This document shows, piece after piece, positions 12,829-62,035 of a stretch of 64,000 nucleotides of DNA. The DNA is from Nereocystis luetkeana. Lineage: Eukaryota; Sar; Phaeophyceae; Laminariales; Laminariaceae. The position numbers and the translations under genes are program-made. Under the pieces are notes generated by a model. That model had not been told where the DNA came from. It worked only from the letters and a program-made list of their open reading frames with translations, and made no database searches. Position 1 is the stretch's first letter, and each line of letters starts with the position of its first letter. The stretch spans positions 6,707,676 through 6,771,675 of the forward strand of contig JARUPZ010000025.1 of the NCBI GenBank assembly GCA_031213475.1, read 5' to 3'.

Positions 12829-12930
12829 ATGCTATTTTTCGATATGAATCTCTGATGACCCAGGTCGTCGGATTTTAGGCTAAATCCGACGACCTGAGTC
12901 ATCGGATTCTCGAATCGAAATAATTCCCGT
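12829..12930. repeat. Strong hairpin / foldback, 22-bp core stem
   Basis: Positions 12854-12875 pair with 12882-12903 with one mismatch in 22 bp, leaving a six-base loop TAGGCT. The pairing continues outward imperfectly (about three quarters matched) to roughly 12829 and 12930. It lies just 3' of repeat D. It could be a tiny foldback element or an RNA hairpin; the sequence alone cannot separate these. Confidence 0.8.
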
Positions 12931-15649: not shown

Positions 15650-16560
15650 TTCTGGATTGTAAACTGAGCCTCAACTGCGACAAGTGCGAGTCTGTCTGTC
15701 TGTAAGTATGTCGGGCCGCCTGGCTTATACTTTCGAATACCTTACAATGGTCGATGTGTAAGATCGTTACAGATGATATTCGTACAACGTATTTGACCCT
15801 TAGGGACCTTATATACTGAAACATATTATACCAACAACACGCAAGTTTAACCATATAATACATCCACGACACGGTACCATCATACCATACCACCAACAGA
15901 CCATACCACATACCATGTTTTTTCCGTGTAACAGACAAATCTGAAAAATGGGAACGAAACAAAAAATGAGAACGGACGTTTTTTTTTAGAAAGCAAACCA
16001 ATTGTGTACAACTCCAAGAAAAAAAGTTGACAGTCCTGTGGGGCTGTACAGCAGCCTTCGAATGAGCTGTCGCTCAGGCTGGAAGTCCTCGGCATCGCCG
16101 CGGTAGCCAGCATCTAGAGAAATCACAATAGAGCCAGCGTATATTGCTTTTTGCGCCCACCCGAAGGCACGAGATGGAGCATGACCGTTCTGACGAGCTC
16201 CTCTCACAGGGCTGGCCAAGGGCTTTCGCAGGATCATTTTGGTTATCTGATACACCACATGGTTCTGGAGATACGGCTTGGTTCTCATTTTAGGCTTCGT
16301 TCCCATTTTTCCGATTTGTCTGTTGTGTAGTAAATCAAACCGTACCATCACACCATACCACCAAGATACTATATATTTACCGAGCAGTTTCCATATGGTA
16401 TATCAAACCATAGTACCCTCATACCATATACCTGGTAATAGCATACGATATCACATCAAGGACACAAGAAGAGCGTAGGTTAAAGGTGCAAGGTGATGAG
16501 GTGGTGAGTGAGGGGAACGTGAAAGGTGGTGAGGTGGTGAGGTGAAATTTGAGGAAGTTA
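15650..16560 (+). repeat. Dispersed repeat C, copy 2 (interrupted)
   Basis: Same landmarks and orientation as 11320-11985. The copy is split by the 395-bp inverted-repeat element at 15930-16324; removing that element and one GTGT restores alignment with copy 1 at about 11760. A TACCTGGTA motif lies at 16429-16437, where copy 1 reads CAGCCTGGAAATA instead. Confidence 0.8.
15930..16324 (-). mobile_element. TIR element family B, copy 1 (395 bp, GTGT target duplication)
   Basis: The ends AACAGACAAATC and GATTTGTCTGTT are inverted repeats that extend imperfectly for about 45 bp (GGAAAAATGGGAACGAA core). GTGT flanks both sides (15926-15929 and 16325-16328), a likely 4-bp target-site duplication. 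A second copy in the opposite orientation lies at 51471-51869 with ACAC on both sides, i.e. the same target read on the other strand. The copies appear more than 95 percent identical by eye. An open frame of about 90 codons crosses each copy, but I recognise no transposase, so I treat it as non-autonomous. Confidence 0.88.
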
Positions 16561-19540: not shown

Positions 19541-19846
19541 GTGCGCTTCCTACCCCCTGCGCGAATCGGCCCGACGTCGCTTATCTCGTTCCGGCTACCC
19601 CCTCCCCCCTCCGGCGAACTCTCGATCGTACTACCGACCCCCCCTCCCTCTCCCGACTCTTCCTCCTCTTACTCCTACTCGGACTGAACGCGCATGCGCT
19701 TCCTACCCCCTGCGCGAATCGGCCCAACGTCGCTCATGTCGTTCAGGCTACTCCCCTTCCCCCCCGATGAACCCTCGATCGTACTACCGACCCCCCCTCC
19801 TCCCGACTCCCCCTCCTCCTCCACCTCCTCCTCCTCCTCCCCCTCC
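19541..19846 (-). repeat. 153-bp tandem duplication over the transposase 3' end
   Basis: Copy 1 (19541-19693) and copy 2 (19694-19846) share GCGCTTCCTACCCCCTGCGC and GATCGTACTACCGACCCCCC. The coding frame stops in copy 2 (stop near 19675), leaving copy 1 as 3' flank. A run of CTC/CCT triplets at about 19806-19890 encodes the acidic run. Confidence 0.85.
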
Positions 19847-21136
19847 TCCTCCTCCTCCTCCTCCTCGAACTCGCTCTCGTCCTCGCTCTCGCTGTCCTGT
19901 GAAGAGTCCTTATCGGTGCAGCGCGATAGCAGCACCCACGATCCCCCTGCCGCCACCTCATCCACCGAGTACTTCGCCAGCGGAAGTTTCATGCTACGTG
20001 TGCTGCCGTTGGTCTCGAGAAACATGCTGAAGTCGTAGAGGTGGCTTGTGCGTGCTTGGGCCTTTCGTGTGATGACCCCCCTGAACCAACCCATCCTGAG
20101 CCGGAGCAGTATCTCTTGGTTGACAAGATTCTGAGTGAGGGCGGCAGGTGCTGAGCTTACTAAAGAATGAACGTCATGGGCTTCAAACGGCAGTAAGTCC
20201 TCGTCGTCAGCGATGTCGTCGTCCAGGTCCAGCACAGCCTTCTCCTCAACCTTTTGCTCCGTCTCGCTCTCGCTCTCCTCCTCGTCGCTTGAACCTGGCG
20301 GGTTCTCCTCATCCGCGGGAGCAGGCGAGATCGGTAGCACATCCTCCAGCGGTTCCGGTGTAGTATCAACCTCCATGAAGGAGTACGTGCCCCCCTCTAC
20401 GCCTTGGAGATTTATGAGGTCATCATCGCTGCCATCTGCCGTCATCACCTGCCCCGTCTTCTCGAAGAAGCGCTTGCGGTACGCAGTGTCGCTGTCGATC
20501 TTCTTCGCGGCCTCTCCGGTCCATTGCGTGGTCAAGATCCGACGATCAGACGCCGTCAGCTTATTGGACTCCCACTGTTCTACGTTGTCGCCGTCAAGAA
20601 GCCACTTGTCCAGAGCCTGCCCCACGAAGACCTTGAAGAGCTTCCCGTACCCGGCGTCCACAGGTTGCACCTCGTCGGTGCATATCGGGGGCAATAGCCA
20701 CAGCAGAGTGTTACACTTCTCGCTCAACACACGCTTGAACTCGTCGGTGGTCTCGCCGTACAGGTTGTCGGCAAAAATAATAGACTGTTTCTCGGGTACC
20801 TCAATGGTAGTTAAAGATACGCCCTTCCTTGCGGAAGGTGTTGCCCGCCCAGGAGTTGCAGAAAGCCGAGTCGGCCCACGCGCAACCTTGCCAGTAGATG
20901 CCCACACCTGGGTGCCACGCCGCCCTCTCAACTGCAGAGATCCGTTTTCCTGAAAGACGGAATATGATGGCGGGCCTGTACACTCTTTGGCCAGGACAGA
21001 AGGTCAGTCGTAGAGTGCACTGTCGTTTCTCCAGGCCAGCAGACGGCTGTGAGATACGGACGCCCTTGCTCCCTTTGTCAGCCCACGTACTGTTCAATCC
21101 GTTGACGAACGGTAGCGGCGCCGAGCAGGAGTTCTA
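19675..21136 (-). pseudogene. DDE_1 (pogo/Tigger-like) transposase, frameshifted remnant
   Basis: Transposases of this family cut and paste DNA using a D-D-D/E catalytic triad. Reading 5' to 3' on the minus strand, the first open segment (stop at about 21136 to stop near 20801) carries G-L-N-S-T-W-A-D-K-G-S-K-G-V-R-I, then K-R-Q-C-T-L-R-L and Y-W-Q-G-C-A-W-A-D, typical of DDE_1 core regions. The second segment (to 19675) is in another frame and carries I-I-F-A-D-N-L (candidate catalytic Asp) and the family-typical L-P-P-x-x-T-D-x-x-Q-P-V-D-A-G-Y-G. The frames switch at about 20810-20830, so at least one frameshift breaks the gene. The 5' part (DNA-binding CENPB/HTH region) is missing or scrambled; a third frame near 21141-21342 may hold a piece. 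The C-terminus has an acidic run and a G-W-F-R-G-V segment with later S-W-V-L-L. An intron hiding the frameshift is possible but I see no good splice sites. Confidence 0.8.
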
Positions 21137-42903: not shown

Positions 42904-44292
42904 TCAATTAATGTCGCAGATTATGGGGAGGTCGAACGAGTCGTGGTCAGGCGGCCACTTGTTAGGTTGCTGGCACTCATCAGCAGACACAAGAACATCC
43001 ACGAAAGGAGGCCACACCACGCCCTCCGTCGGCTGCCTATAGTCGTCATGAAGCACCAACTGCCTCAAGGACGCCGGCCACACAACTCCCTCGATAGGTT
43101 GGTGAAAATCATACCCGAACGTGAGATATTGTAGAGCGCACGGCCGAGTAACATTTTCGATCGGGAGATTAAAATACGGACACAACTCCAGCCGGGTTAG
43201 GGATGCTGGCCACACCACCTCGTCTATCGGTTGGTTCAACTCACCGTTGATAATCAGCTCCCGCAAAGAAGCGGGCCATGCCACACCTTTGATAGGTTGA
43301 TCGAAAGACCAAGAGAAGGCTAGCTGCTGCAAAGAAGCGGGCCATGTCACATCGATGATCGGTTGGTTGAACTTAGAACCGAAGATCAGTTCCACCAAAG
43401 ACGAGGGCCACACCACATCGGCAATTATTGGTTGGTCAAAATATAACCCAAACGTAACTTGTAGCATAGAAGCGGGCCATGCGACATCGACTACCGGCTG
43501 GTTAAACCGATCCCCGAAATAAAGTTGGAGCAGAGAACGGGACCATACGACATCGACTATTGGCTGGTTGAAGCAGGATCCCAACGTCAGTCGTTTCAGC
43601 GAGACTGGCCAAGTAGCAGACTCGATCGGCCGATCGAAATAAGCAGAAAGAGTCAGCCGTTCAAGAGAACTCGGCAAACCCCCCAAGTCCATACGTCTCC
43701 CTCCCCGTAACGAGCCGAGCGACAGCTGCCGCAGTCCAGGTGGCCAAGATACGGTGCCCAGCGTCTGCCTTCTACCCGAATGTTCCCGCCGTCCGAGAAA
43801 ACTCAGCATCGCTTCGAAATAGCTCCTGGGAGAGTGTTCCAATCGCGTGAGAGGCTGTATCAAGTCCTCCCAGGATGAAATACCAGGGGGGTTCGACCTC
43901 AAGCTTTCTTCATCTAAACCCCCAATCTTCAACCATTGTACTCCCCTCACGAGTGCCGCCTCGGACAGTATAGGCACAAACATGTGAGCCGGCATCAGCC
44001 ACTCGACGCCAGTCGCACGCACAGTAGGCTCTCGTCGCCCTCCTGGCGTCTTCAGGGAGCCACGCACTCTGTCATCCGAGGGTTGAGGGCATATCTGGCG
44101 ATAACCCGCAACGTGCGCACGCCCCGGCAGACCACGCAGACCCGAAACGAAGCTAGCTGCAGCTCCAGCGTACTCGTGTACCACTTTCCATTCGACGCCT
44201 GCCCCAGGGCGATCGTGATGGCGTGAATCCATCGACCGCTCCCTGCATTTAAAAAACAACAAGCATCGCAATGTGTCGTCATTGAGATGCAT
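42904..44292 (-). CDS. FNIP/LRR-like tandem-repeat protein, 462 aa
   Basis: This is the clearest intact gene. It starts at an ATG (44292) and runs 462 codons. Residues 1-110 are non-repetitive; 111-177 hold an LRR-like lead-in (V-Q-W-L-K-I-G-G-L). From about 178 to 443 there are about twelve units of 22-23 residues with the pattern F-N-Q-P-I-x-x-V-x-W-P-x-S-L-x-x-L-x-F-G; the best lie between 219 and 415. This matches the FNIP repeat, a leucine-rich-repeat relative that forms a solenoid and is taken to bind protein partners. The last two units (Y-R-Q-P-T-E-G-V-V-W-P-P-F, then C-Q-Q-P-N-K-W-P) lose the Leu positions and look like a capping or decaying end. No signal peptide or kinase/GTPase domain is seen, so the partner and role are unknown. 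A decayed relative lies at 8591-9037. In stramenopiles such repeats form large variable families (my recollection, not checked). Confidence 0.85.
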   Translation of the reverse strand: MHLNDDTLRCLLFFKCRERSMDSRHHDRPGAGVEWKVVHEYAGAAASFVSGLRGLPGRAHVAGYRQICPQPSDDRVRGSLKTPGGRREPTVRATGVEWLMPAHMFVPILSEAALVRGVQWLKIGGLDEESLRSNPPGISSWEDLIQPLTRLEHSPRSYFEAMLSFLGRREHSGRRQTLGTVSWPPGLRQLSLGSLRGGRRMDLGGLPSSLERLTLSAYFDRPIESATWPVSLKRLTLGSCFNQPIVDVVWSRSLLQLYFGDRFNQPVVDVAWPASMLQVTFGLYFDQPIIADVVWPSSLVELIFGSKFNQPIIDVTWPASLQQLAFSWSFDQPIKGVAWPASLRELIINGELNQPIDEVVWPASLTRLELCPYFNLPIENVTRPCALQYLTFGYDFHQPIEGVVWPASLRQLVLHDDYRQPTEGVVWPPFVDVLVSADECQQPNKWPPDHDSFDLPIICDIN

Positions 44293-47200
44293 GCGACGCG
44301 GGCACTTGACATTAGGCCGTTTAAAGCGTCAGTCCCGTGAGGGTCTCGGGACAAGGAGCGTGTGGAGTTCCAAGTGACTGATCGTTGCGAACAAGGGTCT
44401 AAAGCTATTTAGTACATAGAGGACTTGCGCTACAGTGGGGGGGCTACCCCATTTTCACTACCGCGCCTACGCTACAGTACGCGGACGCACTCGGACGAGT
44501 GGCACCGTACCTCGCTTAAACAGTACCAGGTATACATGAAGAGACACAGTTTTGGCAGAGAGTAAAGAAGAGCCTCATGGCGGTGTAAACCTCGTAAACG
44601 TACCCTAGTGAGAACTTTACGAACTGCAACAAAATAGGGTGGCGAGTTGATCTGAGCGGTCGAAAATGTAGAATCTGAAAGGGGCCCGTCTACCGCAGCA
44701 CCAATCGGCGTATTTAGGTAAGACCGAGGCCATCTTGTCTTCCCCCGGTCACGCTCCCCGCCCCCTAGAAGGCTAGGACCCTCGTCGACAACGGTTCTGG
44801 TCAAACAAGCATGACGGTTTTCTGGCAGGAAGACATGCGACTCGTGTTGTGATCGCCGTCGTAGATATTCGTTAGCTTTTTATACTTCGAGCAACCTTTA
44901 CTCTGACCGTGTGGGCTAGAGCTACAGGTGTCGTGATGTTGTGTCCAAGAGGTAACGAGTGGGTTTGGTGTGGTAGGACGGAGTACATCGAGCCGCTTAT
45001 TAGCGATCGGTTGTGAAGTCCTGCAGGAGATGCATCACGCCCACACGCCATAAATACACATACAAACAGGTACTGGGATGCGCTTGAAACTGACGTGACC
45101 AATGCTTGCAGCAAACACTCGATGGCTGACCAAAAAGGGCAAGAAAATATGCTCAGCACGACACCCCCGGGCGCTTTTTAAAATAATGCGTCTGCGCAGA
45201 CACAATGCGCGTAATGCCCCTCTTGAAGGCTGAGGCGTTCGTCTATCGTTTGCATACCATGCACTGGGCATATATATTGCGTGAAAGCCCATGGCTGCTG
45301 GAGTTGCAAGTGGGTGAGTTCCATGGAACCCCTATTGGCCTGACTGGCGGTGTGGCCAATTATAGGGCGTACCCCTCGACATTCACTGATAAAGTGCGAA
45401 CTTCGAATGCCGCTTTCGTTCGCTGCAGCTACAATACACAGTACTCCTGATGTGTGAGGCAGCCCCGTTCCAGGTGGAAAGGAACAGCTATTTTCGCCCA
45501 TATGCCCCAAACAACGTCGGTCTTGCTGGCGGCCATAACGTCGTCGAAGGCCGTGCAGTTTGCAATCCCACGACAGGATTCACACCCCAGAAAGTATACG
45601 CCATCTACAGGTCTCGTTGCCATGTCGCATTGTGCGTGCATTTATTTGGTTGAGGGACACGTAGAGGTTTTAACCAACAGGTACCACGAGTGCTCGGGAG
45701 AGAGACCGCTAAGTTAAGCCCCCTTTAACGGGGATGATGAGGGAGACTTCATGAGGCCCTGGAAAGAGATCTAAGGGTTGAAACAAAACATGGGGGACTC
45801 GACAACAAAATATATTACTTTCAAACGAATATTGTACTTTTGCCGGACACACTACCGACCGCAACGCATTTTGTAACGTAAAAATCACCCAACGGTAGTC
45901 CCGAGACGAAATCAAGCGATTGAGGGCATTTTGGCGTCCGGCACAGTCCCTGAAAATGTTACTACGTAGCAGCATCTGTTGCCGGCATGAGCGAATGCGG
46001 CGGACCCAAAGCACGCGTTTATGCCGTGTTCGAGGCTCTGTGGCCATACGTGGTACCAGGTACCTTATTTCGAGTTGATCGCGGTACGTGTCGTAGTTCG
46101 AGTAAACTGCACATACATGATGAGCAGTTGCCTGAGTAGTACGAGGATATGCGCGCGTCGATGACGGCAGCATCATGAAGTGAACAGAAGCAGCAATACG
46201 GCGAGTAAAACAGTGCATACAACAGCGCACCAGCACCTGTACCCGCGCCAGATCGCAGTGGTAGCAAGTACGTACAATTGAAGCCTGCTGTGCTTCTCGC
46301 TGCTGCTGCACGTGAATACCAACAATTACAACACCACGTATTGAGCTCAAAGAATAGGTCTACAAATATCAACAACGTGCGCAGGAACATACAGCACACA
46401 GACAGCCACAGTCTCTGTCGGTTGCGCGGTCAAGCGGCAGTTGTTCCGGTGGCATGTGTATGCGATCGTCATTAGACAGCCGTCCCGCAAACAACAAACG
46501 GGGGATACTCCTGAGGCCGGGGGGAAAACACCGGGTAAATGCTGTAGTTGTGATTTTATGCTGCCTCCCATGACCAACCCCATCAACGCCTGATAAACCA
46601 TGACCAGGTGTGAACCGTGCAGCAGTTAGTTGTGCTAAATCTCGACTACAGGAAGCTGTTGTTTGTGTGTGTTGAACAAGCAGAGCTTCAAAATGTGATC
46701 TGCAGGTTATATGTATGTGCGCCGGATATGTAACCGACGAGTGTACGAATATCAGTACAGACGGCGGTACAGCTGCCACACTCGTTCTCCCAGGCCAGTG
46801 CCCACAACGCTGCTATAACGTGGGCATCGCGTGAGCCGGCGACCAGCGGCCGTTCATTCCGACCGTGAAGCCCCATTCAAATTAGGCTTCAAAGAAATAT
46901 CTTCCTATTATTAATAGTCGGGTTGTACGACGTACAGCAGTATGCAGGACACGTGAGGAACATTCTCTTCGGCACTCAAACAAAACATGTCCAGGATCGA
47001 GGTGCTTCATAATTTCCGTCAGTATAAACGTAAGCCGGGACGTGCGCGCCAACAAAGAAATGTGCGAATATTTCATTACGTACATTACGTACACTCCTTG
47101 CTTGCGATACGCCCGGCATCGGAGGAACGGGCAAGACAGGGAGAATATTATCTCCCCCGTCTCGTGTCAAGCGGTCAATTTTTCATCGAGGGAGCTCTGC

Positions 47201-51464: not shown

Positions 51465-51470
51465 GCACAC

Positions 51471-51869
51471 AACAGACAAATCGGAAAAATGGGAACGAAG
51501 CCTAAAATGAGAACCAAGCCGTATCTATCTCCACAACCATGTGGTGTATCAGAGAACCAAAACGATCCTGCGAAACCCCTTGGCCAGCCCTGTGAGAGGA
51601 GCTCGTCAGAACGGTCATGCTCCATCTCGTGCCTTCGGGTGGGCGCAAAAAGCGATATACGCTGGCTCTATTGTGATTTCTCTAGATGCTGGCTACCGCG
51701 GCGATGCCGAGGACTTCCAGCCTGAGCGACAGCTCATTCGAAGGCTGTTGTTAAGCCCCACAGGACTGTCAACTTTTTTTCTTGGAGTGGTACACAATTG
51801 GTTTGCTTTCTAAAAAAAACCGTCCGTTCTCATTTTTTGTTTCGTTCCCATTTTTCCGTTTTGTCTGTT
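51471..51869 (+). mobile_element. TIR element family B, copy 2 (399 bp, ACAC target duplication)
   Basis: Ends AACAGACAAATC / AAACGGACAAAA-type TIRs as in 15930-16324, here in the opposite orientation. ACAC flanks both sides (51467-51470 and 51870-51873). Internal sequence matches copy 1 closely, including a run of T near 51773-51780. A 90-codon frame (51541-51813) is conserved between copies, simply reflecting high identity. Confidence 0.88.
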
Positions 51870-52674
51870 ACACGCGTATGTGTACTCGCGGAGAGGGGGC
51901 ATGAACGCCGCGGAACCCCGAGCATCAACCGTCAGGCACGAGCGGGGAGTGAAGCAATGACAGTCGAGGTGGGTGATGGTAAATCCGTGCCTGTATTTGA
52001 ACAGGTGCTTGTACCCGACTTGAAGGGAGGGGAGGGGTGTATGTACATTGCCGGTTGACACCATCGAAGCCGTACCCGGAACTTCTCTAAGTTCTGCATG
52101 CCCGTGGCACCATACCCGGGGTACAGGTATGCCCTAAATTTAAAAGTAGTAAATACCTGGGTACCGGTACGGGTACAGCATTCGTTCCCCTACCCGGAAC
52201 TTACGGCAGTTTTTATTAATTCATGAAATACGTCAGCTGTCAGCTGTGACTGATTAAATAGTTGATACCTGGTAGTCAGTCAGCTTTGCAAGCTGCGTAA
52301 TACGCCTCGTCTATACCCCATTTTTTACTGAATTCACTATTTATTTGTATGATAAGCCGTTCGTGCGTAGCCTGTATGTATTTCCTTGTCACGGTATAGG
52401 CCAGTGACTCGCCTGAACACTACCCGGGTCAACAAGAAAATTTAATAAACCTTCCACACCCGAACCAGGAACTGCAGTAAGTTCCGTAAGACTTCGGTAC
52501 TTGTACCCGGAATTCACGAACCCTACAGAATACAAACTTGGAAAGTTCTCTCCTAACATTTTCACCAAGTGTTAGTCCGGGGATTGAACATACAGTTCCC
52601 TTCGTAGATGCGCTAGATCCCTTGGCGTGGCCTACTCCCAACATGTATCAGGTACGGTAGTGTATCGTGCTTCA
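51870..52674. other. Unassigned, with GGTACAGGTA-type fragments
   Basis: Fragments such as CCGGGGTACAGGTATGCCC (about 52117) and GGGTACCGGTACGGGTAC (about 52167) resemble the flanks of the 41-bp minisatellite. TACCTGGTA lies at 52266-52274. No gene. Confidence 0.45.
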
Positions 52675-53679: not shown

Positions 53680-54315
53680 GGTTAGGGTATAGGTGTCTTA
53701 CAGAACTTACAGAAGCTCCGGGTTAGGGTATAAAACCCGTACAGAACTCACAGAAGTTCCGGGTATTGTGGCCCGGGCGTATAGAACTCACAGAAGTTCC
53801 GGTCAGGTATAACAACGTTGCACCGGTGCCCCGGGCATTGTAAAACCGGGCGTACAGAACTTACAGAAGTTCCGGGTACGGGTATGAAGGTCGTACAGAA
53901 CTCACAGAAGTTCCGGGTACGGGTAAAAAACCCTTACAGAGCTCACAGAAGTTCCGGGTATTGTGGCACGGGCGTACAGAGCTCACAGAAGTTCCAGGCA
54001 AGTATAAAAAAGGTGTACAGGTACCCCGGGTATTGTGGCTCGGTCCCGCACAACTTACAGACGTTTCGGGTACGGGTTTGAAGGTGGCACAAAACTCACG
54101 GAAGTTCCCGGTACTGTGACACGGACGTACAGAACTCACAGACGTTCCGGGTATTTATTGTGGAAAGGGCGTACAGAACTCACCGAAGCTCCGATTGTGG
54201 CCCGGGCGTACAGAACTCACTGAAGTTTCGATTGTGGCACGGGCGTACAGAACTCACAGAAGTCTAAATTGTGGCACGGGCGTACAGAACTTACAGAAGT
54301 TCCGGACAGTACCCC
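53680..54315 (+). repeat. 41-bp minisatellite, array 1
   Basis: The unit is CGTACAGAACTCACAGAAGT followed by TCCGGGTACGGGTATGAAGG, with starts at about 53851, 53892, 53933 and 53973 (period 40-41 bp). Variant tails (GGGTATTGTGGCACGGG) alternate. A second array of the same unit lies at 57061-57480. Frames through it, on either strand, are translations of the repeat. Confidence 0.9.
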
Positions 54316-57060: not shown

Positions 57061-57480
57061 CTGTACCGGCACCCCGGGTATTGTGCCGAGGGTATACCCT
57101 TACCCCGGTTATTGTGCCGAAGGTCTTACCGAACTTACAGACATTCCGGGTACGGGTATGGATGTCTTGCAGAACGTACAGAAGTTCCAGGTACGGGTAT
57201 AAAACCCTTGCTGAACTCACAGAAGTTCCGGGCATTGTGTCACGGGCATCCAGAACTCACAGAAGGCTCGGGCAGGTACAAAAACGTTGTACCGGTACCC
57301 CGGGGGTTGTGAAACGGATCGTACAAAACTTACAGAAGTTCCGGGTACGGGTATGAAGGTCGTACAGAACTAACGGAAGTTCCGGGTACGGGTATAAACG
57401 TCTTACAGAACTTACAGAACTTCTCTATTATAGGGTATTTCCCGGGTAAATACCCCGGGTATTGTTCTCTAGGTACCCTA
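57061..57480 (+). repeat. 41-bp minisatellite, array 2
   Basis: The same unit as 53680-54315 (ACAGAACTTACAGAAGTTCC, GGGTACGGGTATGAAGG). The array ends in CAGAACCTAACCTTGCAATATT, which matches text at the right end of the foldback element at about 53640 in inverted orientation. The two arrays may be copies of one larger unit. Confidence 0.88.
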
Positions 57481-57707: not shown

Positions 57708-59660
57708 AGCTTTGCACACAGGTCCCAGTAACATAAAGTGCAATGTGATGGCGAACAGCGCTACTATACATGAGATAATGGCGCCTGGTATGCTTGCAGT
57801 GAACGACACCGGCAAAACGACTCTCACCTCCCCTGGTTATTGATGAAGGAGCGCGATAAATTGATCCTCCCCTAGCATTGATCTAGAAGTGCAATAATAC
57901 GTTATATCCTGCTCATCAACAAAAATGTAAGCAGAGACACAGCAGGGGCAAGGAGGGGTGCTTAGTGGTTGTACTTGAGTGTCAACTTAAAATATTACAT
58001 ACTGGTATGTTTTTTTCCGCTTCACAACAAGTAAGGTTCGAACCGTCGAGAGAATGACAACATTGAACGGATATTCCCGCCGTAGAACTACTCTAACCTA
58101 TCTAGGCAAATCTGCCCACGAGGGCGTCTGGTGGTATTCCATTGTATAAGTGAATAGTGTGATTGGAACAAGTGCTACGAGGACGCATTGCTAGATTGCA
58201 AATAAATGAAATATCATTAATTAGAACCATGAATGAGTGGCGTAAGGACGATGTTCGATTGCATCGTGAGACTCTTTCCTTGAAGAACATCGCCGAAAAA
58301 TATCAGCATCATCACCAAGCAGCAACCACATACATACGAACATGAGGGTCAAGCGTTTAAAGTACGTAGAGGAGCGCAGCAGTGGGTACATCAGAAAAAA
58401 ACACGGGGCTCGCTTGTTGATGAGGGGGAAGGGCTTCCATCCGCCCCGCGCCCTGCCCCGGACCATGTATGTGTCTCACGTTATGAACAGTGAAGCATAG
58501 AGTGGGACAGACCGCAGAGACATTTTGGGTTTGATTCAAATTGTGCCTAAAATGAGGGGATGATAAGCCCGAAACTTACCTGCCAAAACGAAGTAGTTCC
58601 AGCTCCTTCGCCTCTGAGAACGCTCGTGTTCTACTGGCTATCTTTCCTGCTTGTGTGCACGTTCGCTGTTTACTTGTTCTCTGTACTGCAGTTCTGCCAG
58701 TTAACCCTCCGCCGGTTGATATGTGCATTTTTAAGTTACTTCTGCAGTGTATGGAATCCTGAGCAGTGCTGTCTAAATCTCCAGCTGGCGTGTGCGTTCA
58801 TTGTCCCTGACCTGGTATGTAGCTGTCTTCCTATGACCCGCGTTGGCAGTATTTTCGATAAACCACCTTCTAATGTGTACTGGTACCGAGTACCACGCGC
58901 GGACTAGGCACTAGTTCGACTTGAACAACCGCTGTATGTAGCTTTTTCTCGACAACAGTAAGTGCATTATCGCATGGGAGTGCGCTTCTACGGGTCTCGA
59001 AGCAGGACTCCTCTCCTACTCTTCCCCACGTAAGGGCCTGCGGTACACCTTTGAGGTTTGTCGGGCCTTGTGGCTATTGATTTAAACCCCTTGTCACCTG
59101 CCGTCGAATATCAGTTCCATATGTCGTAGCTCTGGCGCCATTGATATAAACGTTTCGACCCGCAATAGTAGTGCTCATAAGAAAATCCCCCAAGCGATTG
59201 ACCTCAACATTCGCAACACGGTCCTCTTCGCAAAGAATGCTCCGAGGATGACTGCTCCAATCACGAGGGCAACTCACATTTCTCTGCGATACCAACGAAG
59301 TATGGTTAGGATCGTGTTGGTATTGCCTCAGACGCTGCGTAGAACGGCCAATGGCACCAGGGACATTTTATGTGGGTTAGCGACGGAATTTCGTCCTGGG
59401 TCTAGGACCAACCGAAACTACTGTACAGTAGACCATCATTGTACCATCGGCATCAGCAGTGCTAGTCGGGCACAGGAGGCGATTATCTATCATGTGGTCA
59501 GTCATGTCATATTGCATACCAGACAACATTTTTTTGGCACTGCCGGCAGGAGTTGGGATGAACCCGAAAGAAAAGCACCAATATATGGTGGCCATTCACT
59601 GCTCCGATGAGTACGCCATATATACCGGCCAGTTTGTGCTACGGGCAGTACTTTGAGTAT
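57708..59660. other. No supported gene
   Basis: Frames include 58560-58907 plus (115 codons, hydrophobic and Cys-rich) and 59459-59656 plus. Neither has a recognised domain. The GGTTCGAACC near 58036 is discussed among rejected items. Confidence 0.4.
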
Positions 59661-59742
59661 GTTCGTTTATAATGGATAGACCACTGAGCTACTCAGTCAG
59701 CGCTGACTGAGTAGCTCAGTGGTCTATCCTTTATAAACGAAC
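59661..59742. repeat. 82-bp terminal palindrome, left
   Basis: Two 41-bp arms (59661-59701 and 59702-59742) are reverse complements with one mismatch, with no spacer. Inside the GGATAGACC/GGTCTATCC stem are two small hairpins, ACTGAGCTACTCAGT and ACTGAGTAGCTCAGT, flanking CAGCGCTG, so a single strand could fold as a stem with two side arms. Each arm also holds TAGCTCAGTGGT, which matches the A-box/D-arm text of tRNA genes. Confidence 0.92.
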
Positions 59743-59830
59743 AAAAGAAGTACCTTTGGGCTCGATACGGCCTCCCGCCGATAACATCCTCCGGGGTTGA
59801 TCAAGCCCCTAATCAGCGCCTGGTCTTTTC

Positions 59831-60092
59831 TTCCTATAGTCCCCCTCCCTAGTCGTGAGTTATTTTACTCAAGTGGTTCACTCCACTTTCGACTCTCTAG
59901 TCGAGTGTTCTTTTATCGTGGTTCTCTCCACCTGATTTCCCTTTTTCTACCCACGGCAGGTCCTTCCTATAGTCCCCCTCCCTAGTCGTGAGTTATTTTA
60001 CTCAAGTGGTTCACTCCACTTTCGACTCTCTAGTCCAGTGTTCTTTTATCGTGGTTCTCTCCACCTGATTTCCCTTTCTCTACCCACGGCAG
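59831..60092 (+). repeat. 133-bp-period direct duplication within the left arm
   Basis: Copies 59831-59959 and 59964-60092 both start TTCCTATAGTCCCCCTCC and end CTACCCACGGCAG; nearly identical. Only the first belongs to the matched terminal inverted repeat. Confidence 0.9.
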
Positions 60093-60142
60093 AAAAAGCG
60101 GAATTACGACGTCTGGCGGAACTTGAACCCCGGACTTCTTTT

Positions 60143-60225
60143 GTTCGTTTATAAACGATAGACAACTGAGCTACTCAGTCAGCGCTGACTGAGGAGCTCA
60201 GTGGTCTATCCTTTATAAAACGCAC
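60143..60225. repeat. Internal third copy of the palindrome (diverged)
   Basis: Same design as 59661-59742 but with several mismatches between arms (ACAACTGAG versus CTCAGTGGT, and an extra A in TATAAAACGCAC). The minus strand beyond the left arm reads GGGGTTCAAGTTCC, a B-box-like sequence about 30 bp from an A-box-like TAGCTCAGTTGT. Confidence 0.88.
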
Positions 60226-61326
60226 AAAAGAAGTACCTTTGGGCTCGATACGGCCTCTGGCAGCGCTGAGGGTAGCGCTGCTGTAGGGGAGAGCCCACAA
60301 GGGGCAGTACCCACTGCTGGAGTACGAGAGACTACTGCTGCTGTTGAAGCAGGCATTGGTCGATCGGAGTCCGGCAGCGCTGAGGGTAGCGCCGCTGTAG
60401 GGGAGAGCCAACTAGGGGCAGTATCCACTGCTGTACGAGACACTACAGCAGGAGATGATACGATTTTGCGGGATGATGCTCTGCGTAATTTCGCAGCGAC
60501 GGGACGCGGCGAACCTGCGTTGTCTGTCGAGGTTGGCCCACGGAGGGGTCAGCCAGACCAGCCTGGGAGGGCTGGAGAGAGAGGTCCATACCTCAGCGGG
60601 GAGTCCGGTGGTGGCTCGACCGCGACTGCCGGTGGCAATAAGAACAGTGCCAAAACCCCCGAAGGTAGTACCTTCGCAGGGAGGTGCTTCAAAATGTGGC
60701 AATAAGGGCCACAGGGTTGCAAATTGCACGGTGAAGCTGTGCATTGGATGCAACGGACAGGGGCACGCTGCTGATGTCTGCCCCACGTCGAAAGAAGAAG
60801 CTGTCACGGCGAGGCCGGCGACGAAACACCCGAGACGATGGGTTCGTCTCAAGGGGGTGCCATGGACGTCTCCTCGGCCCCGAGGGGGAGGGCCGAAACA
60901 GCCGAGACGATGGGTACGTCTCAAGGGGGCGCCGTGAACGCCTCCTCGGTCCCGCCAGGGAGGGCCGAAAGCGACCCGGGTGCAACATCAGTCTCAGACA
61001 CCGGCCAAGGGAACGGTGAGGGCCCTCCCGCCATCCTGTCGGGCAGGCCAGCACACGAGCTCAGCAGCTGGGGACGGCTCCCTCCGACAGTACGGGGCCG
61101 GACCCGGGGTCAGAGCCAACGCCTGGAGGGTGAACCTCCAGTGAACCAGCTAAGGATGGACAGAGGAGCCGCAGACGCGCTGCTTGCGGCAGCGTACGAG
61201 TGGTCCACGACGCCTGGGAGTATTCTGAATCGTACGTCATGGGCGACGGAGGACGCAGTGGCCTTGATGGCCGGAGGACCTGCCGTGGGTAGAAAAAGGG
61301 AAATCAGGTGGAGAGAACCACGATAA
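60193..61326 (+). pseudogene. Gag-like frame with two CCHC zinc knuckles, frameshifted
   Basis: Gag proteins of retrotransposons bind RNA through C-x2-C-x4-H-x4-C knuckles. Here a frame open from 60193 (just after a stop at 60190, no ATG until 60466) encodes a Gly/Ala/Glu-rich region with an in-frame 38-residue tandem duplication (60259-60372 and 60373-60450). It then meets a run of four A (60691-60694) in the first knuckle: the knuckle's first Cys is in one frame and the remaining Cys, His and Cys are in the next. The second knuckle (C-I-G-C ... G-H ... C, about 60738-60780) is intact in that second frame. Coding-like text then returns to the first frame from about 60830, with a 24-residue tandem duplication (60831-60974), and ends at 61326 inside the right terminal repeat. 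Two frame changes mean no single intact product. No protease, RT or integrase follows. Programmed frameshifting is possible but two shifts make decay likelier. Confidence 0.7.
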
Positions 61327-61495
61327 AAGAACACTCGACTAGAGAGTCGAAAGTGGAGTGAACCGCTTGAGTAAAATAACTCACGACTAGGGAGGGGGAC
61401 TATAGGAAGGAAAAACCAGGCGCTGATTAGGGGCTTGATCAACCCCGGAGGATGTTATCGGCGGAGGCCGTATCGAGCCCAAAGGTACTTCTTTT

Positions 61496-61577
61496 GTTCG
61501 TTTATAAAGGATAGACCACTGATCTACTCAGTCAGCGCTGACTGAGTAGCTCAGTGGTCTATCCTTTATAAACGAAC
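61496..61577. repeat. 82-bp terminal palindrome, right
   Basis: Arms 61496-61536 and 61537-61577 are reverse complements with one mismatch (GATCTAC versus GTAGCTC). It is the mirror of 59661-59742 at the other end of the element. Confidence 0.92.
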
Positions 61578-62035
61578 AGAGTACGGTAGGGATCAAACCG
61601 AAATGCTCTGAGTCTTCTGTGTCAAAGGACCCCTACGCCACACCCAACGAACGACTCTATCAAAACATCGAAAGCCAAACCCACTCTGCTCTGCAATTCT
61701 ATGTACTTCACCTAGGTATCTGACGACAAAGTATGGTATAATCCGTATCAGAGCTAACGATGTTGGGCAGCTGGTTTGGTGAGCGACTCCGTCGGTGAGA
61801 AACGATTGGGCTGGATAATACCAGCCCTACCGTAGCACGATTCTGCCTCCTTTTCCAGGCCCTGCTTACTGACTCGACCTACTGGTGCAGCTGCATCCTG
61901 CAGAACACTTGTGCAGGATGCGGGTATTATTGGTCAAGCCGGGTTTTCCGGCCGCCCGGCGTTGTTTCTGGAAAAATGCCACCAAATCACGCGGCGGAGC
62001 CGCGTGACTACTCCTGCCGACCTCAAGATTCCCAA
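61578..62035. other. No recognisable feature
   Basis: Unassigned sequence with a small GGAGCCGCG-type inverted pair (CACGCGGCGGAGCCGCGTG) at 61990-62008. Confidence 0.45.

Follow-up and report, generated by a model that had tools for sequence, protein, structure and literature searches.

An element bounded by near-perfect palindromes, with a zinc-knuckle, Gag-like frame in its interior, lies near the right end of the 64-kb window (i.e., the whole stretch of Nereocystis luetkeana DNA analyzed here) and raises the question of what kind of element it is and how it moves. Our analysis indicates that it is very probably a chimeric member of a non-autonomous, TRIM-like retroelement family with many copies (basic unit, U), for which a Ty1/Copia retrotransposon in the same genome provides mobilization in trans.

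Architecture of the window element

The element spans window positions 59660 to 61578, has the termini TGTTCG...CGAACA, and is flanked on both sides by an exact 5-bp duplication, GAGTA (59655 to 59659 and 61579 to 61583); a 5-bp match at the same spacing occurs at 79 of 62,071 window positions. Each terminus is a palindrome that starts with TGTTCG, ends with CGAACA, and is 98% self-complementary, with one mismatched pair (P1, 59660 to 59743; P3, 61495 to 61578). The near-perfect palindromes and inverted repeats of the original prediction are both present and slightly longer than had been proposed, at 84 rather than 82 bp for the palindromes and, for the arms, at 307 aligned columns with 7 differences rather than approximately 298 bp. 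A third palindrome, P2 (60142 to 60226), is internal, closes the U unit, and is more decayed than P1 and P3. Palindrome scores across the whole window placed P1 and P3 as the top two and P2 third; the next strongest palindrome, with 22-bp arms and a 6-base loop, is located at 12854 to 12903.

P1 folds with an energy of -43.7 kcal/mol, compared with a shuffle mean of -6.65 (z = -17.6). A fold with a cross-arm, as had been proposed, is possible, but it is not the favored form: the T-shaped structure reaches -25.9 kcal/mol for P1 and -27.7 kcal/mol for P3, versus -43.7 and -41.7 kcal/mol, respectively, for the straight hairpin, which is thus favored by 14 to 18 kcal/mol. The suggested likeness to hairpin-ended linear replicons was not supported, given the disfavored T-shaped fold and the lack of a Pfam match to a Rep protein or telomere resolvase in the frames searched, and a parvovirus-like repeat was rejected on the same grounds. 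A microRNA precursor was likewise rejected, as all Rfam matches, which are expected for long hairpins, were below the gathering scores.

Between the terminal palindromes, the left part of the element is a U unit with a tandemly doubled block: P1 is followed on the plus strand by the unit-internal segment X (59744 to 59829), two copies of a 130-bp block, R, that contains several short hairpins (59830 to 59959 and 59963 to 60092; two differences between the copies), and the segment Y (60093 to 60141), which adjoins P2. The first 31 bases of X are then repeated (X'; 60227 to 60257, plus strand) before a frameshifted Copia gag fragment (60258 to 60770, plus strand), which is approximately 86% identical to a gag stretch of locus L010 and has two CCHC knuckles (about 60685 to 60784, plus strand). 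A Copia pol fragment from between the integrase and the reverse transcriptase follows (60807 to 61288, plus strand; approximately 95% identical to other copies), and its last nine bases, CTGCCGTGG (61280 to 61288), are common to the R block. The element is completed by inverted copies of R (61280 to 61409) and X (61410 to 61494), both on the minus strand, and by P3. The right junction therefore has a nine-base microhomology, CTGCCGTGG, between pol and R. The zinc-knuckle frame does exist, although a frameshift interrupts it and its Pfam match is weak (zf-CCHC; E value of 0.037, under the cutoff), and the longest ATG/GTG/TTG frame wholly within the U copy of the window comprises 62 amino acids (aa). 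As read from these frames, with gag frameshifted and pol present only as a fragment, the window copy encodes nothing complete.

Dispersed copies and target-site duplications

A whole-genome search (465 Mb; 1,987 contigs) with the 300-bp arm as the query gave 745 first-look candidates (40 scored) and 207 matches, and a hand count among the matches listed placed the arm at at least 39 separate places, such that it is present many times rather than as a single local inversion. With a 433-bp unit as the query (745 first-look candidates; 40 scored), 173 matches were obtained, and the family copies among the matches listed are scattered over at least 30 contigs. No relatives of the element were detected in searches of viral contigs and of prokaryote genomes. 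The common form is unit U, which is approximately 433 bp long and has the order P-X-R-Y-P (P being the palindrome); five monomers with duplications in the first set of stretches described below measure 409 to 446 bp. Two U subtypes, distinguished by the start of R (CTATA or ATATT), occur together within single composites at L003, L011, and L024. In 40 P copies with both ends readable, length variants mirrored between the palindrome halves gave counts of 8/6/6/18 (p = 0.08). Mirrored changes in P numbered 59, versus 40 expected, and were dominated by frame shifts at positions 1 to 6 (99 P copies found, of which 86 copies of 84 bp were compared).

Target-site duplications were scored as identical 5-mers at the exact boundary of TG...CA end pairs, with up to two mismatches allowed in the end motifs. 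The first set of 25 stretches, from which L001, L002, L006, and L007 were left out as duplicates of other stretches and in which longer forms of C35, C19, and C8 were used, contained 5-bp duplications at 20 of 733 end pairs, versus 0 to 3 at each of 40 shifted registers, and 19 of the 25 stretches had at least one. The second set (14 loci) contained duplications at 9 of 142 pairs in 8 loci, with at most 2 at other registers; one of these, at L032, has ends that are neither P nor LTR and was attributed to chance, so that 8 pairs remain in 7 loci. The third set, consisting of 13 new loci among the 30 returned by the 433-bp-unit search (of which L070, L071, and L072 look like one arrangement), yielded 8 of 246 pairs in 7 loci, with 6 at a shift of -20 and no more than 2 at the other shifts. 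There were no 6- to 8-bp matches at register 0 in any of the three sets.

Across the three sets, exact 5-bp duplications were found in 33 of 52 stretches. They flank monomers (GCGTG, 433 bp, and TACTT, 435 bp), dimers in direct (TACGT, 984 bp) or inverted (TGTAT, 770 bp) arrangement, and longer chimeras, and one U copy is inserted in a Copia pol gene with the duplication CCCGA. The other 19 stretches have no 5-bp duplication at P or LTR ends; some of them are too short, and others (e.g., L063) have both P ends in view. Among the end pairs scored as matching, the end at L010 sits 5 bases past P. Fixed ends, dispersal, the 5-bp length of the duplications, chimeras, and mobility are observed directly in these data, as are the polarity of the inverted pairs and the microhomology and A-tract junctions described below. 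The constant TG...CA ends and the many dispersed copies with 5-bp duplications at different targets support a non-autonomous mobile element, as had been proposed.

Copia partner and chimeric junctions

The gag-like interior of the window element aligns with longer elements of the same genome and, judged by this alignment, is a deletion fragment of a Ty1/Copia retrotransposon that is repeated there, in agreement with the rearranged retroelement considered in the original prediction. The source of the interior has the domain order of Ty1/Copia elements (i.e., integrase before RVT_2): an uninterrupted 1,203-aa frame at C19, searched as two pieces, matched Pol_BBD (E value of 1.1e-16) and rve (3.4e-8) in the first piece and RVT_2 (2e-49) in the second. 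The Copia LTR is approximately 258 bp long, starts with TGTTCGTTTGG, and ends with CTACGAACA; a purine tract precedes the 3' LTR, and in C1, a related Copia copy, a primer-binding site (PBS)-like stretch follows the 5' LTR. A 453-bp query across the Copia 3' end gave 838 first-look candidates (40 scored), and the matches at 39 scored places besides the query stop at query base 352 to 362 (the LTR ends at 352). Five equal-scoring Copia 3' ends between positions 5420723 and 5875603 of G000:C9 are spaced in steps of approximately 113.6 kb, which suggests a large tandem duplication.

P and the Copia LTR coincide in their nine initial bases, TGTTCGTTT, and in their seven final bases, ACGAACA, and no wider P/LTR similarity was found in the Copia-bearing elements compared. 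This element, with its Pol_BBD, integrase, and RVT_2 domains and common terminal sequence, is the probable mobilizing partner of the kind for which the prediction had proposed a check. At C19, one duplication (TACAC) encloses an element with unlike termini, P at one and the Copia LTR at the other, and L008 likewise has a P end and a Copia LTR end within one duplication (TCACA). Because both loci carry the two kinds of end within one 5-bp duplication, P and LTR ends appear to be used alike. The C19 hybrid lies in a satellite array; this array, with a period of approximately 273 bp, is present at L014 (3 to 1802) and around C19 (L030), where it hosts this U-Copia hybrid insertion, and the same satellite borders a Copia LTR in L010 (6476 to 7001).

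A second type of junction involves a single position in the Copia LTR. In C8 and C33, the LTR similarity stops at or just after GACTATAAA and is followed by an A-rich tract, beyond which P begins in C8 and X-P in C33; the C1 element (7,301 bp; duplication CAATG) has a third join at the same LTR position, there to Y. The A tract may be read as the poly(A) end of the Copia messenger, in an LTR that is itself A-rich.

Because of the P/LTR hybrids and the fusion of the A-tract-ended Copia LTR to P, we attribute the formation of these elements to Copia reverse transcriptase, template switching, and Copia integrase. P would serve as the terminal repeat, its TGTTCG...CGAACA ends mimicking the ends of the Copia LTR. 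U RNA, reading P-X-R-Y-P, would enter Copia particles and be copied there, presumably by the Copia reverse transcriptase with frequent switches of template, and the junctions suggest that such switches would join U to an inverted U or to Copia RNA, giving the inverted arms and the gag/pol filling. The Copia integrase, recognizing TGTTCG/CGAACA, would then insert the product with 5-bp duplications, as the ends, the duplication length, and the P/LTR hybrids imply. For the window element, the growing strand would have passed between U, a stretch of Copia gag/pol RNA, and a second U-derived strand.

The inverted U pairs show a polarity. Among 51 stretches, 12 inverted U pairs have X outward (+-), versus one with the opposite arrangement (-+). 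Nine of the 12 lie inside one clear duplication (the window, L003, L005 twice, L011, L019, L024, L035, and L042), so that X is outward in 9 of 9 inverted pairs inside clearly bounded elements. Two others, in L032 and L034, belong to composites without a resolved duplication, and the pair in L061 may span two insertions, with GGCTA at three places (before both U groups and after the second; one or two insertions possible). Between the two U groups of L061 (1097 to 1500), a stretch resembling a LINE-type reverse transcriptase was seen by eye. The single -+ pair spans two separately flanked elements in L005, and the C1 element is one more X-outward case. Copia pieces located downstream of a Y-side P are in sense orientation in six cases (the window, L019, C19, C8, L008, and C1) and antisense in C35. 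Outside the inverted pairs, the exceptions to this polarity are C33, in which the U located after the Copia 3' end has Y facing outward; C35, with a Y-side right end outward; and L050, in which Copia pol is joined straight to X.

The arms of seven inverted elements were compared with between-locus copies, using only units that cover nearly all of X and R (53 units), and their identities fell at percentiles of 0.92 (window), 0.54, 0.06, 0.54, 0.99, 0.39, and 0.82. The inverted elements of L003, L011, and L024 mix the two U subtypes. Since the two arms frequently differ as much as copies taken from separate loci, some inverted elements appear to join two source molecules; the window element and L035 could, on arm identity, be derived from a single source. 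Snap-back of one RNA as the sole origin of inverted dimers is disfavored, as the arms lie at or below the 54th percentile in four of seven elements. Some inverted composites could be assembly errors at palindromes, against which the flanking duplications argue.

These observations also bear on a non-autonomous DNA transposon (i.e., a multimer of a TIR element or MITE), which would be moved by a transposase with TG...CA ends and 5-bp duplications and would have acquired its Copia pieces via DNA repair. Inverted ends, short size, high copy number, and 5-bp duplications are all in keeping with such an element, and annotators should be aware that elements of the U family can resemble TIR DNA transposons. 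However, the partner identified, with its matching ends, is an LTR retrotransposon, the A tracts follow one LTR position, hybrid P/LTR ends occur within one duplication, and the arms of inverted elements are often as divergent as random copies, and we consider a DNA transposon unlikely. Ginger-like transposons were considered and set aside once the Copia partner was found, and kinship with IS481EU was rejected, as its target-site duplications, in the portion of the description available, are about 4, 15, or 25 bp. Replitrons have an HUH endonuclease and no TIRs according to the accessible part of their description (PMC10741241); the elements described here have long inverted arms and no HUH match in the frames searched.

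tRNA-like ends, related systems, and other window features

Read outward from the center of P, U contains an A-box-like motif, TAGCTCAGTGG, followed at a distance of 44 nt by a B-box-like motif, GGTTCGAGTCC, the two spanning P and X or Y. The B box GGTTCGAGTCC was found in five of six units compared, and the summed mismatches of the two boxes are 1 in three units, 2 in two units, and 3 in the window copy, in which the A-box-like motif lies within P2 (60163 to 60173, minus strand) and the B-box-like motif within Y (60118 to 60129, minus strand), both read by eye. Shuffled sequences did as well in 0 of 200 cases for four units, 3 of 200 for L013, and 9 of 200 for the window copy, whose signal is weak. 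No cloverleaf was recognized by ARAGORN in default mode or by Rfam, and the relaxed mitochondrial mode of ARAGORN returned short, mutually inconsistent matches.

The spacing of the boxes, their two or fewer mismatches in five of six units, and the shuffling result in four of six would suit head-to-head copies of a tRNA-derived SINE family that later received the Copia pieces as insertions. LINE-driven SINEs have variable duplications and 3' tails. The ends of U, in contrast, are fixed at TGTTCG/CGAACA with 5-bp duplications, and the Copia pieces are inside the same duplications, which makes a SINE family very improbable. A local inverted duplication or chromosomal rearrangement without mobility, to which the inverted arms of the window might have pointed, has a negligible probability, being refuted by the flanks (i.e., by many dispersed copies with 5-bp duplications at different targets).

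Polar LTRs and a tRNA primer supplied by the host are normally required by LTR retrotransposons. No PBS or polypurine tract (PPT) was recognized in U, and by eye no purine tract adjoins either P. The sequence from GACTGAG to the element end CGAACA measures 39 nt, with its complement forming the opposite half of P. One tentative and rather doubtful reading of this arrangement is that P is a primer fused to its own binding site, with which U would start reverse transcription without a host tRNA. The 39-nt, tRNA-half-like sequence would stop at the cleavage point of an anticodon loop, and a U RNA or cDNA would prime synthesis through base pairing of its 3' P with that of a second U RNA. Such priming would jointly explain the X-outward pairs, the frequent origin of arms from different U subtypes, and the joining of P to A-tailed Copia sequence, but it is made less likely by the pairs in L032, L034, and L061 and the exceptions in C33, C35, and L050. 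The replacement of the tRNA primer and its binding site by P would be a further step, less well supported than the rest of the Copia-driven mechanism; if it is true, U is a retroelement whose palindromic terminal repeat doubles as its primer. Palindromic terminal repeats would suggest that the Copia integrase accepts an end sequence of 6 to 9 bp on a palindrome, and the built-in tRNA half with its complement would suggest that reverse transcription may be self-primed, which is plausible from the sequence of P. Self-complementary, partly tRNA-like ends are unusual for such non-autonomous parasites. The interest of the family lies in these palindromic ends and in its chimeras, whose visible junctions are a natural record of template switching.

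Because U carries putative tRNA-like A and B boxes, the nearest known elements are TRIMp3 and Helenus (Kojima 2024, PMC10886601), which, in the part of that paper accessible to us, are also short and non-autonomous, with A and B boxes at the terminal repeats. Fungal Helenus elements further resemble U in their 5-bp duplications and in a Copia partner whose LTR need not resemble that of Helenus, according to the same part of the paper (PMC10886601). U has the 4- to 5-bp duplication and autonomous LTR partner of this kind of element (5 bp; Copia). In contrast to U, Helenus has two LTRs, a PBS, and a PPT in the text available (PMC10886601). The terminal repeat of U is palindromic rather than polar, its tRNA-like part straddles the repeat and the interior at both ends, its tRNA-like 5' half adjoins its own complement, and inverted concatemers occur. 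The accessible text of PMC10886601 reports, for fungal Helenus and several Copia lineages, a tRNA primer used at the anticodon loop or 3' truncated, finds no complementarity between the tRNA-like part of Helenus and the PBS, and asks whether the tRNA-like LTR sequence could prime; in the U family, a complement is present. The strings "palindrom" and "inverted" have no occurrences in the main text of PMC10886601.

By size and coding capacity, U is a TRIM (<1,000 bp and no coding capacity; PMC6934838); the same definition includes two direct terminal repeats of 100 to 250 bp, whereas P measures 84 bp and, being palindromic, does not distinguish direct from inverted orientation. The Cassandra TRIM, in the part of PMC7215508 available, is similar in having a small-RNA-gene promoter in its terminal repeats, in being non-autonomous, and in forming LTR-internal-LTR arrays, but its promoter is of 5S rRNA rather than tRNA type, its LTRs are polar, and its arrays are described as direct. 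Veju and BARE-2 resemble the U chimeras in that foreign sequence is joined by RNA switching in one particle, but the accessible portion of PMC13317346 mentions neither palindromic ends nor outward polarity nor A-tract joins for them. Fungal GalEa Copia elements with the Conserved Hairpin Site have a palindrome or hairpin at the border of LTR and interior and no canonical PBS, as U does; however, as far as the accessible text of PMC5445492 goes, this palindrome, of 9 bp, and its hairpin are located immediately within an autonomous element, in contrast to an 84-bp palindromic terminal repeat. In the brown alga Ectocarpus, a transposable element survey reports Copia families with a single gag-like open reading frame; the section of it that we covered contains no palindromic family, and "palindrom" occurs 0 times in its main text (PMC12477816). 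In the accessible part of the literature, we encountered no TRIM described as having palindromic terminal repeats, and the family may be catalogued in Repbase or in subscription papers. The earlier view that the architecture matches no standard class is correct for the palindromic terminal repeats, which are absent from the description in the available text of PMC10886601, but TRIMs with tRNA-like LTRs have been published, and U is a real, abundant family that belongs with the TRIMp3 elements and does not form a new class.

The 64-kb window contains several other features. Another inverted-repeat element is located at 1338 to 1983 (114-bp arms, 96% alike, starting with TGTTGCAGCGCT), with no target duplication seen at the match ends. 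Two copies of a 408-bp repeat (15925 to 16328 and 51467 to 51874) are 96% identical, inverted, and approximately 35 kb apart. A 442-aa open frame on the minus strand (19675 to 21003) has a weak match to the DDE_1 transposase (E value of 3.3e-4), just below the curated cutoff. The intervals 53699 to 54304 and 57123 to 57423 are tandem arrays of related 37- to 41-bp units (CAGAACT..ACAGAAGTTCC). A 474-aa open frame on the minus strand (42904 to 44328) encodes FNIP repeats (Pfam E value of 1.1e-35), which are typical of brown algae and other stramenopiles.
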